From the NCBI GenBank assembly GCA_951812805.1, contig CATOSZ010000001.1:558001-622000 (forward strand): a stretch of 64,000 nucleotides of DNA, given 5' to 3'. The notes beneath the pieces were generated by a model, which made no database searches, had not been told where the DNA came from, and saw only the letters and a program-made list of their open reading frames with translations. Positions within the stretch are counted from its first letter, which is position 1, and each line of letters begins with the position of its first letter. This document shows, one piece after another, positions 26,213 through 34,686 of this stretch. A program made the position numbers and the translations under genes. Source of the DNA: an uncultured Alphaproteobacteria bacterium. GTDB taxonomy: Bacteria > Pseudomonadota > Alphaproteobacteria > GCA-2731375.

Positions 26213-26842
26213 ATGGCGATTTTTCGACGCACGCGCATCCGACAATCGTTCCTGGCCGACGCGACACGGGTCCTCGTCCTCGCCTTGGGGCTCAGCGCCG
26301 GTGCCGGCCTCGCCACCGGGACCTCCCAGGCGGAGCCACTCGCGGCGCTGGCGACCGGGGCGATGGCCAACTTTATCGTTTCCGAGGCGCCCGAACCAGT
26401 GCCGGAAATCCGCTTCTTCGACGAGAAGGGCACGAAGATCACGCTCGGCGATTTCAAGGGCCGCGTGGTGCTGTTGAACTTCTGGGCGACCTGGTGCGCC
26501 CCTTGCCGGCGCGAAATGCCGGACCTCGCCGAGTTACAGCGCGAGTTCGGCCCCGACGGCCTCGACGTGGTCGCCGTCTCGGGCGACCGCCAGGGCCCAG
26601 CGGTGGTACAGCCCTTTTACGACGAGATCGGCGTCAAGGACCTCGTCGTCTACAACGACCGCACGATGAAGGCGCAACGCGCCTTCCGCGTCTACGGCCT
26701 GCCGACAACGATGCTGATCGACCGCGAGGGCCGCGAAATCGGCCGCCTCCTCGGCCCCGCCGAATGGGCCAGCGCCGACGCCAAGGCCCTGCTCGCAAAC
26801 GCCCTCGGCAAGACGGAAGCGAAGAAGAAGGCGGCGAACTAG
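26213..26842 (+). CDS. TlpA/ResA-type thioredoxin-like thiol reductase
   Basis: A 209-residue periplasmic thioredoxin-fold protein. A hydrophobic N-terminal segment (about residues 17-40) would export or anchor it. The active site is WCAPC with Cys95 and Cys98, in LLNFWATWCAPCRREMPDL. The cis-Pro loop is VYGLPTTMLIDREG. TlpA proteins reduce disulfides in cytochrome c or cytochrome oxidase assembly. The gene is divergent from argH, an arrangement common in Alphaproteobacteria. A strong hairpin immediately follows its stop. Confidence 0.88.
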   Translation: MAIFRRTRIRQSFLADATRVLVLALGLSAGAGLATGTSQAEPLAALATGAMANFIVSEAPEPVPEIRFFDEKGTKITLGDFKGRVVLLNFWATWCAPCRREMPDLAELQREFGPDGLDVVAVSGDRQGPAVVQPFYDEIGVKDLVVYNDRTMKAQRAFRVYGLPTTMLIDREGREIGRLLGPAEWASADAKALLANALGKTEAKKKAAN

Positions 26843-26888: not shown

Positions 26889-27866
26889 CTACTGGCGCTT
26901 GATGAAGAAGCGTTCGCCGCCGCCTTCGATGAACAGCTGTGGGTCGGTCTTGTCGCGGACCTGGGCGCCGGTGTGGGCGAACTTGCCGCCCTTCATTTCA
27001 TATTTGTAGACGCCGTGCACCTTGCCATCGAGGGTGATGGTGATCTCGTAGCTGCCGTCCTCGACGTATTCGGAGGCCGGCACGCTGCCCTTCTTCGAGC
27101 GGGGGTTGAGGTCGTAGCGGATGTACCAGGGCTTGAGCTGCAGCGGATTGGCTTCATTCAGGCCCGGCCAGAAGGACAGCACCTCGCCGTTCCGCTTGAT
27201 CACCATGTTGGTCTGGGGATTGCCCCACTTGCCCGGCTCCGCCTCCTCGTCGCGCAGCCAGACGGAGAACTGGGCGGCGGCACGGCGGTTGCGGGGGATG
27301 TAGATGTAGCCGAAGTCCGCCCACGGTCCGTCCAGGTACCATTTGCTGTCGGGGGTGTAGGCATCCGCACCCGCCGCCACGCGGACGGAGAAGGGGAACT
27401 TTTAGAACGGCTTACCTTCCAGGAAGAACTCCAGGTAGTAGTCGCCGTCCTCCAGCTCGTACTTCTCCGTATCAGCCGGATGCATCATCCAGAACGGTCG
27501 CTTCAGCTTCTGGCCGCTGTAGAACTGGGTGTTGACCACCGCGCCGTCGGCCTTCTTCACCTGGTGCGCGAGGCGGGCGCCGGTGGCGGTGTTGTAGGCG
27601 TAACTGTGCTTCGGATCGTTGTATTCCGGGAAGAACAGCGCGCGAAGCCGGCCGTTCATCTGGATGCGACCTTCCTTCCAGACGACCTGATTCTGGATCG
27701 CGCTCATCAGGTCGGAATAGAGCGGCGCGGGCGGCGGAAACTTCGGGTTGTATTTGAGGGTCTTGCCGGAACTGAGCTCGGCACTCTCGGCCGGGATCAG
27801 CGCCTGGGCGAGCATCAGGCCGGCCCCGACAGCCAGCGCCATCCCGCTTCTCAGATATGAACGCAT
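26889..27866 (-). pseudogene. Secreted protein of unknown function, interrupted by an in-frame TAA
   Basis: One reading frame runs from ATG 27866 (GGAGG seven bases upstream) to 26889, broken only by TAA at 27402-27404. The first 155 codons encode a signal peptide (SGMALAVGAGLMLAQALIP) and a beta-rich lobe ending DGDYYLEFFLEGKPF. After the stop the frame continues KFPFSVRVAAGADAYTPDSK for 171 codons, with a second lobe that ends in the related pattern DGSYEITITLDGK. The two lobes look like an internal duplication. No new ribosome-binding site precedes the second half. The simplest reading is a Tyr-to-stop mutation or a sequence error; readthrough is possible. Function unknown; it is divergent from the propeller gene. 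Confidence 0.7.
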
Positions 27867-28074
27867 CGTTTCGCCTCCTCGAATTGCCACACATTACTCA
27901 GGCCCGGAGCGCTCGTCCCCGCGTGGTGCCCCCGGGTCCCGACAAATGGTAACCGGTCGCCGCCGACTCTCAAACCGAAACCGCAATGACCGGTATTCCG
28001 TTTGCCAGCCCCGGCGCCTTTTGGCACCATCGACGCGAAGATCGCGTCACAACGTCGATGGGGTGGGTTAAGAC

Positions 28075-31000
28075 ATGCGGGTACCTCTGATCGCGGCCGT
28101 CGTCGCCGGTCTGTTTGCACTGGCGGTGAACGTCGAGGCCTTCGCCCAGGGCGACGAACACTGGTCGCGCCAATTCACGAAGCCGCGCGCGCCGACGGCG
28201 ATGGGTCCCGGTACGGGCATGAGCATGGGCAACGGCAAGCCGCTGATCCTCAACGCCAAATGGCACGACGGCAAGTTGTGGATGGCGGGCGCCTGGCTCG
28301 CCGGCGCCAACCCGACGAAGCCGACCCGGCGCGATCCCAACACCTATTGGAACCTGTGGACCTGGTCGCCGGAAGAGGGCTGGCACGCGTTCGCCCATTT
28401 CGGCAAGAAAGGCGGTGCCGGCCCGGACGGGCGGATCTACGACATGGTCTGGCTGCCGGACGGCCGCATGGTCGTCGGCGGCGCCTTCAGGCGCGTCGAC
28501 AACCTGGGCGGCACCATGTACCACCGGGTGAACGGCCTGGCGATCTACGATCCGAACGAGCCGACGGCCAACAAGTGGCGCCCGCTCGGCAGCTTTCAGT
28601 ACAACGGCACGGTCTACAAAGGCCATATCCAGGCGCTGGCCTACGACCCGAAGTCGAACGATCTGTTCATGGGCGGCAACTTCGGCGGGGTCTACGGCGC
28701 CAACAGCCGCCATGTCCACCGCTACGACTTCGACACCGGCACGGTCGAGCCGATGACGCCGGGCGTCATCAGCCCCAAGACCTTCGTGCGCAAGATCCGT
28801 GTCGACACCTCGACCACGCCGTCGACGGTCTATGTCGCCGGCAAATTCCATTATACCGGCGGCGAAGGGCTGGAACCGCGGGTCTCCAAGAGCAAGGCGC
28901 GCTATTCGACGGGCTTCGCCGCCTGGCGGGAGGACGTCGGCTGGATCACCTTCCCGAAGAACGGCGCCGAGCATAAGGAGAACATTCTCCAGCGCGCCGC
29001 CGACTTCAAAAACTTCGACTCGGTCAACGTGCTCGACTTCCTGCTCGACGGCGAGGACATCTGGATCGTCGGCGCCTTCTCCCAGGGCAAGGGCAGCGGC
29101 GAGACCTTGCGCGGCATCGCCAAGTGGGACGCCGAGGCCGAAAAATGGATCGATCCCACGGGCAAGGGCGGCATCGGCCGCGAGGCCTTCGCGATTGGCA
29201 AGACCGAGGACGGCAAGATCTATATCGCCGGCGCCTTCGGCGGCAAAGGCAAGAGCAACGGCGACTTCGACGGCTTCAAGAACGGCGAGGCCGCCGCCAT
29301 GGTCGCGGTGCACGATCCCGCGACGGGAAACTGGAACCAGGTCGGTTCCGGCCTGTTGAGCCTGCCCTTCCCGGAGGCCCGCCTGGCGACCAACGGCAAC
29401 GACGTCTATGTCGTCGGCGACTTCCACTATATCGGCAAGGACAACGACAAGCAGAAAGAGTTCGAGAGCTTCTTCATCGCCCGCTGGAACGAGCATATCG
29501 ACTTCTCGAAGACACCGGCCAAGGTCGCGGCCAAACCGGCGCCGCCGGCCGCGGTGCCGGTGCCGACCAAGCCCATCGCGACCGGCAACGCGCATTGGTC
29601 GCGCGGCTTTCCCAAGCCGCCGCGCCGGCGCCGGCCGGACGAACCGGCGCACTCGGGTGCGACCGGCATGGACGTCGGCACCGGCACGCCGGAGATCCGC
29701 GGCCTCGCGAAACTGGACGACAAGCTCTATTTCGTCGGCGCCTGGGCGGCGGTGCCGAACAGCCGCTGGTTCGTCTGGAGCTGGCACAAGGACGAGGGCT
29801 GGGAACCGCTCGCCTGGGACGAGCGCGGCAAGGGCCAGGGCCCGGCCGCCATGCCGAACGGCATCGTCGCGCGGGACGGCAAGCTATGGGTGCATGGCGG
29901 CCTGCCGAAGTACAAGGGCATCGCGATCTGGGATCCCAAGGCCAAGAGCTGGTCCGCCTTCGAGGGCAAACGCGACGGCAAGACGGTCAAGGGCCACGCC
30001 ATGCAACAGGGCGGCGGCACCATCTACGACCTCGCCTGGAACGACAAGACCGGCGATTTCTATATCGTCGGCGCCTCGGGCCTGCAGAACCCCGACTACC
30101 AGTATCCGGGCGACGTCGCGCCGATCATCCGCGTCGACAAGGCCGGCGCCTATCACACCATGGGGCACGACATTAAGCCCGAGGACGCGAAGAAGCCGGT
30201 CAAACGCTTCGTCACCATGCACATCGACGAAAACCAGGACCCGCCCGCGATCTATATCGGCGGCACCTTCAACTTCAACGGTCCGGCGCCGACCAAGACC
30301 AAGGATCAGGTCTACAACGTCGCCCGCTGGGACGACGACAAGCAGGACTGGGGCCCAATCGGCAAGGGGGTGCCGCCGAAATGGGTCGAACGCGACCGCT
30401 TCCCCGAGGGCTATCCGGGCCTGCCGGCGCGGCCGACCGACTATGTCGGCTTCCTCGAGCCGCTGTTTCCCCGGGTCCACGCGCTGATTACCGACAAGGC
30501 CGGCAACCTCTATGCCGGCGGCACCATCGCCGTGCTGGATTCCAAGACCCTGCCGGTCGCCAAGCGGGTCGAGAGCTTCGGCATCGCCAAGTGGGACAAG
30601 GGAAGCGATACCTGGGTGGGCGTCGCCAAGACCGACGGCTTCAGCCGCGACATCATCGAGATGAGCTGGCTGGACGAGAGCGAAAGCAAGTTGCTGGTCA
30701 CCGGCGGCTTCGAATATGGCAACGACTGGACGCCGCTGAATGGGGTGGCCATCGTCGAGATCGCCACGGGCGAGGTCGAGCCGCTCGGCGGCGGCCTGAT
30801 GCTGTCGACCCGCGACCAGACCGTGGCGCCGATGATCCGCCATGTGAAGGACGGCGACGACATCTATTTCGCAGGCCTGTTCGACCATGCCGGCATCAAC
30901 GCCAATTCGCTGCTGGCGACCCCAGTGCAGAGTTCCTTCGTCGCCCTCTACAACGCGACCAAGGACTTCTCGAAGGACGTGCAGAAGACCGGCGGGCGGG

Positions 31001-31335
31001 TGACCAGCCGGCCCAAGGCCCGCAGCCGCCCACGCGCCGGCGGGGCCGCCAAGCCCGCTTCCACCGGCACCCCCACGACCGGCGGCGCGACCGGCAGCGC
31101 GGCCAGCGGCGGCGGCGGACTCAGCAAGAGCCTCGCCTACAAGGTGCGCACCGCGGAGGAGGACCTGGCGAAGATCGAGGCCGCGCTCGCCTCCGGCAAG
31201 ACGGGCGCCGTCAAGTCGAAGTTGCGCAGCGTCGAACGTGTGCTGAAAGGGCTGAAGCGCAACAAGGCGGCAAGCGCCCATCCGCGCGTCCTGGACGTCG
31301 TCAAACGCTACGAGGCGGCCAAGGGCAAGCTCTGA
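28075..31335 (+). CDS. Large secreted protein, two predicted seven-bladed beta-propellers and a helical tail
   Basis: A 1086-residue protein with a signal peptide (MRVPLIAAVVAGLFALAVNV through AFAQ). It contains two related halves. The first starts DEHWSRQFTKP near residue 27, the second NAHWSRGFPKP near 505. Each half has seven spaced copies of a hydrophobic-Gly-x-Phe blade motif: MAGAW, VVGGAF, FMGGNF, VAGKF, IVGAF, IAGAF, VVGDF; then FVGAW, VHGGL, IVGAS, IGGTF, AGGTI, VTGGF, FAGLF. That fits two seven-bladed propellers, similar in style to kelch or Rax2-like repeats. A Pro/Ala/Gly linker leads to a Lys-rich helical domain from about 1014. No enzyme motif or membrane anchor is visible. Probably extracytoplasmic binding; partner unknown. 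Confidence 0.7.
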   Translation: MRVPLIAAVVAGLFALAVNVEAFAQGDEHWSRQFTKPRAPTAMGPGTGMSMGNGKPLILNAKWHDGKLWMAGAWLAGANPTKPTRRDPNTYWNLWTWSPEEGWHAFAHFGKKGGAGPDGRIYDMVWLPDGRMVVGGAFRRVDNLGGTMYHRVNGLAIYDPNEPTANKWRPLGSFQYNGTVYKGHIQALAYDPKSNDLFMGGNFGGVYGANSRHVHRYDFDTGTVEPMTPGVISPKTFVRKIRVDTSTTPSTVYVAGKFHYTGGEGLEPRVSKSKARYSTGFAAWREDVGWITFPKNGAEHKENILQRAADFKNFDSVNVLDFLLDGEDIWIVGAFSQGKGSGETLRGIAKWDAEAEKWIDPTGKGGIGREAFAIGKTEDGKIYIAGAFGGKGKSNGDFDGFKNGEAAAMVAVHDPATGNWNQVGSGLLSLPFPEARLATNGNDVYVVGDFHYIGKDNDKQKEFESFFIARWNEHIDFSKTPAKVAAKPAPPAAVPVPTKPIATGNAHWSRGFPKPPRRRRPDEPAHSGATGMDVGTGTPEIRGLAKLDDKLYFVGAWAAVPNSRWFVWSWHKDEGWEPLAWDERGKGQGPAAMPNGIVARDGKLWVHGGLPKYKGIAIWDPKAKSWSAFEGKRDGKTVKGHAMQQGGGTIYDLAWNDKTGDFYIVGASGLQNPDYQYPGDVAPIIRVDKAGAYHTMGHDIKPEDAKKPVKRFVTMHIDENQDPPAIYIGGTFNFNGPAPTKTKDQVYNVARWDDDKQDWGPIGKGVPPKWVERDRFPEGYPGLPARPTDYVGFLEPLFPRVHALITDKAGNLYAGGTIAVLDSKTLPVAKRVESFGIAKWDKGSDTWVGVAKTDGFSRDIIEMSWLDESESKLLVTGGFEYGNDWTPLNGVAIVEIATGEVEPLGGGLMLSTRDQTVAPMIRHVKDGDDIYFAGLFDHAGINANSLLATPVQSSFVALYNATKDFSKDVQKTGGRVTSRPKARSRPRAGGAAKPASTGTPTTGGATGSAASGGGGLSKSLAYKVRTAEEDLAKIEAALASGKTGAVKSKLRSVERVLKGLKRNKAASAHPRVLDVVKRYEAAKGKL

Positions 31336-33476: not shown

Positions 33477-34686
33477 TCAGGGCAATCGCATTTCAGAATT
33501 TGCCGAGGAGTGACAGGAGATAGTCGTTGTTCCAAGCGGCGATTTTGAACTTGGCGCGCAGCGAGTCTTTTCGTGGATCCTTTCGCATGACATTGAGCGC
33601 CATGTGGCGCAGGACGGCGAGATTGTGCGGTCCATTGTCCTTGCGGGTTCTGTCTTGGTCTTCGTTCATTTGGACATCGAGGCACCAGTGCAGGCGGTTT
33701 TCGACCCCCCAGTGCGCCCGGGCAACGGGATTGAAGCGCTCGGCGTCGAGCGGCTGGCTGAGCAGGTAGTAGGCGGTTTCGCTCGACGTCTTCTCCGCGC
33801 ACTCGCGGGTCCGGGTGACTTTGGCGACCGCCTTCAGGCCCGGCCAATGATGGCGCTCTTGCAGCCACTCGACGTGGCTGGAGACGAGAGCGGCACGGGT
33901 CTCGATGCGGCCATGATCGCCATCGACCGTGGTGTCGGTGGTGGTCGCTTCGGCTTTCGGATCGTCGAGGAAGGTTCTCACGTCGTCATGCAGCGTGCCT
34001 TGATTGCCCTTCAACGCCAGGGCGTAGTCACCCCCCTGCTCGATAATCTGGCTGGCGATGGCGCGCTGGCAATTGAGGGCGTCCACGGTCACGATCGTCC
34101 CCTCGAGGCTCAATAGTTTCAACAGCTTCGGCACGGCGGTGATCTCGTTGGACTTGGCGTCGGTGGCGACTTGCCCCAACACCAGCCGCTGATCACAGCC
34201 CCAGGCCGAGACCATATGCAGCGCCGACGTGCCGCTCGCCTTGTCGTAGGATCGCCGCACCACCTTGCCGTCGATCGCAATGACCCCTTGGCAGGTCTCG
34301 GAAAAGCGCGCCATGAAGCGCTGGAAGCAGGCGCCGAACGCCTCCGGATCCAGCAACCGGAACACCCGGCTGAAGGTGTCGTGGCTCGGCACGCCATGTT
34401 CGAGTACGAGAAATTCCCGCAGGAACGCCTCCTTTTCACGCGCGAAGATCGCCATGTCGACCGCCGTCTGACCGCCCGAGAGGACCGTGCACAGGGCGAT
34501 CGTCAAGATCTCCAGCAGATCGTGACGCCCGGCATTGCCAGTCCGCGGATCCTCGAGACCCTCAAAGCACTCCAGAAAGCCTTCCATCGCAACCTCCACC
34601 CGTGAAAAGACCGGGTAGAATCGATTCGCGCCAATACCTCAAGATCAAACACGCACGTCAAGGCAATTCCAAATGCGATTCCCCTG
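33477..34686 (-). mobile_element. ISAs1-family insertion sequence, complete
   Basis: About 1210 bp with one leftward transposase gene. The ends are imperfect inverted repeats: CAGGGCAATCGCATTT at the left, CAGGGGAATCGCATTT read inward from the right. A perfect 10-bp target duplication flanks it, so the element arrived by simple transposition and has not since been rearranged. It sits between the flavoprotein gene and a less GC-rich orphan ORF. Confidence 0.85.
33493..34587 (-). CDS. ISAs1-family transposase
   Basis: A 364-residue DDE transposase. Residues near the N-terminus (LEDPRTGNAGRHDLLEILTI) match the DDE_Tnp_1-associated domain. Catalytic-region motifs are VIAIDGKVVRRSYD, IVTVDALNCQ, YALALKGNQGTLH and ARAHWGVENRLHWCLDVQMN. 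Length is normal and the frame is intact, so the element could be active. ATG 34587 is preferred because GGAGG lies five bases upstream; a GTG at 34599 adds four residues. Confidence 0.92.
   Translation of the reverse strand: MEGFLECFEGLEDPRTGNAGRHDLLEILTIALCTVLSGGQTAVDMAIFAREKEAFLREFLVLEHGVPSHDTFSRVFRLLDPEAFGACFQRFMARFSETCQGVIAIDGKVVRRSYDKASGTSALHMVSAWGCDQRLVLGQVATDAKSNEITAVPKLLKLLSLEGTIVTVDALNCQRAIASQIIEQGGDYALALKGNQGTLHDDVRTFLDDPKAEATTTDTTVDGDHGRIETRAALVSSHVEWLQERHHWPGLKAVAKVTRTRECAEKTSSETAYYLLSQPLDAERFNPVARAHWGVENRLHWCLDVQMNEDQDRTRKDNGPHNLAVLRHMALNVMRKDPRKDSLRAKFKIAAWNNDYLLSLLGKF

Follow-up and report, generated by a model that had tools for sequence, protein, structure and literature searches.

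The window (the whole 64,000-nucleotide stretch analyzed) carries on its forward strand, at 28075-31335, an open reading frame for a 1086-residue protein. That this is a real gene product, as originally called, is borne out by its host-like codon-position GC (0.61/0.48/0.91, similar to that of adjacent genes) and by conservation in its own frame. The conservation, at 47–57% identity across both propellers, extends to ten further genes in nine genomes; these and the window gene form the family described here. The features of the gene, with the evidence for each, are:

28075..31335, + strand: ORF, secreted double propeller protein, 1086 aa (ORF call and homologues)
28075..28149, + strand: predicted signal peptide, residues 1–25, VEAFA/Q-GDEHW (sequence and family alignment)
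28150..29514, + strand: propeller 1, residues 26–480, seven predicted blades (AF2 and VIA-align)
28159..28170, + strand: HWSR motif of half 1, residues 29–32, putative closing strand of blade 7 (alignments; only three later strands in blade 7)
29515..29583, + strand: Pro/Ala-rich inter-propeller linker, residues 481–503 (sequence; mostly pLDDT <60)
29584..30972, + strand: propeller 2, residues 504–966, seven predicted blades, HWSR at 29593-29604 (AF2 of this half alone, and VIA-align)
30973..31113, + strand: low-complexity basic/Gly/Thr/Ala linker, residues 967–1013 (sequence; pLDDT <50)
31114..31332, + strand: predicted basic helical tail, residues 1014–1086, in place of the homologues' Ig-like domain (alignment, AF2 and Pfam)

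The claim that the protein is secreted is supported by the predicted signal peptide, MRVPLIAAVVAGLFALAVNVEAFA, which lies immediately N-terminal of the conserved GDEHWSRQF that starts the mature protein, and by a hydrophobic leader that ends just upstream of DEHWS in all complete homologues of the alignment.

The gene stands just beyond the end of a block that is conserved in relatives and runs from 20990 via lysA and argH to a TlpA-like gene (26213-26842). All 10 relative loci keep lysA-argH-TlpA, and in none of the 10 does a propeller gene adjoin it. An ISAs1-type transposase gene (DDE_Tnp_1_assoc and DDE_Tnp_1 domains) lies 2.2 kb downstream of the propeller gene, at 33493-34599 on the reverse strand.

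A link between the propeller gene and its divergent neighbor at 26889-27890 on the reverse strand (first given as 26889-27866) had been hinted at, and the data refute it. The neighbor contains an in-frame TAA at 27402-27404 (FLEGKPF*KFPF). Genome G092 has an uninterrupted 320-residue relative (L080:4569-5531) that extends across this position, so that the window copy is either a putatively broken gene or one with a sequencing error. No relative of the neighbor turned up in the nine other genomes that carry the family, which rules it out as a conserved partner.

Homologous halves and predicted propeller folds

The two halves of the protein were predicted to be homologous, which is confirmed by BLASTP (24.8% identity over 453 residues, E = 5e-20) and by HHalign of the half profiles (27% over 423 columns, E = 5.9e-48); residues 26–486 align end to end with residues 500–966. 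HWSR does open each half, at residues 29–32 and 507–510. The original prediction also had a hydrophobic-Gly-x-Phe motif seven times in each half. The position does recur seven times, but its Phe is often substituted in half 2, where W, L, S or I is found instead. Strict [AVILMF]-G-x-F occurs 6 times versus 1.8 in shuffles (maximum 8), and a relaxed form (G/Y/W allowed at position 1, Trp at position 4) 11 times versus 5.1 (maximum 13). The motif by itself is thus weak evidence, and the blade count comes from the predicted structure.

The full-length AF2 model, from 12 input sequences, is of modest confidence (mean pLDDT 66, pTM 0.55), and at this pTM the modeled placement of the propellers relative to each other is of low confidence. 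In each half it has six blades of four strands, and a seventh in which three main strands are seen. Half 2 modeled alone, from 21 input sequences (pLDDT 75, pTM 0.83), again forms seven blades. With VIA-align, residues 25–476 matched seven-bladed propellers, RACK1 among them (Z 24.6, rmsd 2.9, 281 residues); for half 2 the best rows were the propellers of the BT4673 sensor (Z 23.9, rmsd 3.4, 287 residues), level with many other propellers of seven blades. The prediction of two seven-bladed propellers is thus supported by seven modeled blades per half and by a Z near 24 to solved seven-bladed structures for both. Because the seventh blade is one strand short and the HWSR segment at the N-terminus of the same half fits the gap, we infer that each propeller may be closed by its own HWSR strand (velcro closure).

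At 89 polar, charged or aromatic positions of the family alignment, all covering rows agree. These invariant positions show no bias to one face (27% in DA+BC versus 30% in AB+CD for the loops of half 1).

Relation to known propeller proteins

No bacterial family had been recognized for this layout at the outset, and indeed no Pfam or NCBIfam model covers the whole protein; however, its blades reach Kelch_6 (PF13964), and its layout is that of PorZ and of hybrid sensors. The Kelch_6 score (30.5 bits versus a gathering threshold of 25.3, E = 3e-7) applies to the whole protein, no single stretch being significant alone, and 10 of the 12 family rows match this model. The Rax2 C-terminal propeller model (PF12768) is below gathering in the window protein (20.5 versus 28.8 bits) and matches 11 of 12 rows across the family, with a best E of 5e-11. 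Also below their cut-offs in the window protein are Reg_prop (16.3 versus 20.4 bits), DUF5122 (PF17164; 14.7 versus 27) and delta-60 (TIGR02608; 12.6 versus 76.5). The family profile finds PDB kelch domains at E ~1e-3; unlike kelch propellers such as those of KEAP1 and the KLHL proteins, the window protein has two propellers, is secreted, has the conserved HWSR openings and has long BC and DA loops. We conclude that the family, though undescribed, is of a known kind: its blades are kelch-like, its layout is known and, in this genome, its C-terminus is a variant.

The best full-length Foldseek match is BT4663 (E = 4e-15). BT4663 and BT4673 are hybrid two-component systems whose periplasmic sensor domains have two propellers and Y_Y_Y, and share with the window protein two seven-bladed propellers (predicted models here). 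They differ from it in that no Y_Y_Y, histidine kinase or response-regulator domain was found in the window protein, and the family profile has no match to either at the sequence level. Disaccharides bind to BT4663 at the entry face of each of its propellers (PMC5121618).

GH74 xyloglucanases, which likewise have two tandem seven-bladed propellers, are among the full-length Foldseek matches (6p2k, E = 8e-10; 3a0f; 7kn8), and the query TM-score of 6p2k, 0.27, is the highest among the matches listed. The protein might then be a GH74-like enzyme with a catalytic acidic pair in the cleft between its propellers and an extracellular polysaccharide as substrate, and many invariant Asp residues in both halves favor this. 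We consider it improbable, since the Asp-box (strict [ST]-x-D-x-G-x-x-[WFY]) of GH74 is absent from all family rows, there is no detectable sequence relation to GH74, identity to the PDB matches is at random level, and no BNR/Sortilin or glycosidase Pfam model is matched. It also speaks against such an enzyme that among the few neighbors examined no carbohydrate-use genes were recognized, and that no neighbor is conserved.

No catalytic motif had been seen at the outset, and the propeller protein matched no catalytic family in Pfam or NCBIfam. Propeller folds include many enzymes as well as binders; with so many invariant positions, catalytic residues are therefore possible in the window protein. 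Another proposal, which we rate as a long shot, is that the family represents a so far undescribed class of extracellular enzymes or receptors whose home is one Planctomycetota class and whose active site lies where the two kelch-like propellers meet; it would have spread between phyla by transfer and gained a new cell-attachment tail in this alphaproteobacterium.

The replaced C-terminus

In every complete homologue the chain ends with a beta-rich domain of ~90 residues (..ITWYERR..YYVSVT..DGVEGGKxPVRIPV), whose resemblance to Pfam Ig_7 'CHU_C associated' is weak and stays under the gathering score (best E 4e-4). On the alignment, the window protein has this Ig-like domain swapped for a putative basic helical tail. 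Such a tail after a low-complexity linker had been predicted, with surface or cell-wall attachment as its possible use; both are present in the sequence, residues 967–1086 holding 27 K/R versus 8 D/E, but the helical model of the tail is poorly confident (AF2 pLDDT mostly 22–59). The tail matched nothing above cut-off in Pfam, and its matches in the planctomycete class were at background level only (best E 0.019). We rejected the idea that it is a frameshifted Ig-like domain, finding no convincing remnant of that domain in any frame of the window.

The C-terminus bears on the comparison with PorZ, a surface component that belongs to the type IX secretion system of Porphyromonas gingivalis and has two seven-bladed propellers in succession and then a beta-sandwich at its C-terminus, with the N-terminus of the chain closing propeller 2 (PMC5121618). 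The family is likewise exported and has the same domain order, two seven-bladed propellers and then a C-terminal beta domain. Unlike PorZ, the window protein has a helical tail instead of the beta-sandwich, and each of its halves has its own HWSR segment, the candidate closing strand. PorZ is absent among the matches listed by Foldseek and VIA-align and among the listed sequence matches, although its fold may still be similar.

The family could on these grounds be a PorZ-like component of surface or secretion machinery whose C-terminal beta domain is a sorting or anchoring signal; its loss would leave the window protein periplasmic or held by its basic tail. The shared domain order (PMC5121618) and the Ig_7 resemblance point that way. 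Against it, the Ig_7 matches stay below gathering, the domain is replaced in the window copy, and a sporadic spread over phyla is ill-suited to a machinery part, which makes this explanation quite unlikely.

Distribution, probable transfer and proposed role

A GTDB scan gave four full-length homologues, in two Planctomycetota metagenome-assembled genomes (MAGs), one Limnochordia MAG and Desulfobotulus alkaliphilus. Whole-genome searches added genes in G529, G550 (a copy truncated at a contig end), G591, G602 (two copies) and G633; these genomes all belong to the same phylum set as the planctomycete G099. The family gene is carried by 5 of the 12 genomes of one Planctomycetota class and by two of the ~380 other sampled genomes of the phylum. 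It occurs in one of 398 Pseudomonadota genomes, the window's own, in one of 297 genomes of the phylum of Desulfobotulus, Desulfobotulus itself, and in none of 14 same-family relatives of the host. In the tree the window protein groups, on a long branch, with those of G099 and G633, at a support of 92/95 that falls slightly short of the strict threshold; the copies from Limnochordia and Desulfobotulus group with one G602 copy, G602a (92/98). Concentration in one planctomycete class with sporadic occurrence elsewhere suggests horizontal transfer of the family between phyla; on the simplest reading its direction would be out of that class.

Phages and plasmids searched by tblastn gave no match to the propeller protein, IMG/VR held no relative, and PHROG 5490 matches over residues 121–266 only. 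A phage or plasmid origin, considered as a candidate, was rejected on the tblastn and IMG/VR results.

Synteny around the family gene is common only to the close planctomycete relatives G099 and G633, whose proteins are ~90% identical. A conserved neighborhood was considered and rejected, kinase-like genes lying near several planctomycete copies in no fixed arrangement. In G633 (L019:5121-7766) and the syntenic G099, the family gene is followed on its own strand by two genes, one for a protein with a calpain-like cysteine protease domain and one for an SH3/DPBB protein. The D. alkaliphilus gene (L005:1-5425) adjoins a WYL regulator, confirmed by Pfam, and this locus also has genes that, from a look at their sequences, resemble a CRISPR Cas3-type helicase, which is probably coincidental. 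The two full-length copies in the planctomycete G602 (L020:3408-6629 and L021:8980-12249) are just 53% identical to each other. In another planctomycete, G591, the family gene is split by a ~1.4-kb insertion sequence (L023:10690-12090) with 18-bp inverted ends, CAAGCCCATTGACTTAAG, and a ~11-bp target duplication, GGCTACTACGT.

The transferred gene might be of little benefit to this host, without a settled function, and its retention near a mobile element a matter of chance. It is missing from all the same-family relatives searched, it sits past the end of the conserved block, beside a broken gene and close to the ISAs1-type transposase, and one planctomycete copy has been disrupted by an insertion sequence. 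Yet the frame is intact over 3.2 kb, codon use is host-like (GC3 0.91) and the invariant family residues are retained despite the long branch, which together point to maintained selection and leave chance retention unlikely.

The reading we prefer, with a probability of about one half, is that the window gene was acquired horizontally, belongs to a small undescribed family and encodes a Sec-exported, non-catalytic extracytoplasmic binding protein with two kelch-like seven-bladed propellers and a C-terminal tether or spacer. The nearest layouts of known function support a binder, since BT4663/BT4673 and PorZ bind ligands or are surface components, and the window protein probably binds something outside the cell. 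The mature protein would work outside the cytoplasm, holding its ligand (a glycan, peptide or protein partner) on the propeller loops or in the cleft between propellers. The functional unit would be the propeller pair. The exchangeable C-terminal module, which in the family is Ig-like, would serve only as a tether or spacer, and the basic helical tail of the window protein could hold the protein to an anionic envelope. Export, the duplication, both propeller folds, the family with its distribution and the change of C-terminus are shown in or predicted from the sequences; binding, ligand and tethering we draw from the disaccharide binding of BT4663 and from PorZ as a surface component.

We found no published paper on this double-propeller family, which is coherent and well conserved and has no name or known function. 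In its probable transfer between phyla both propellers stayed together and the C-terminal module was exchanged, which makes the propeller pair look like the functional part. The ten homologous genes make the conserved surface and the ligand directly testable.
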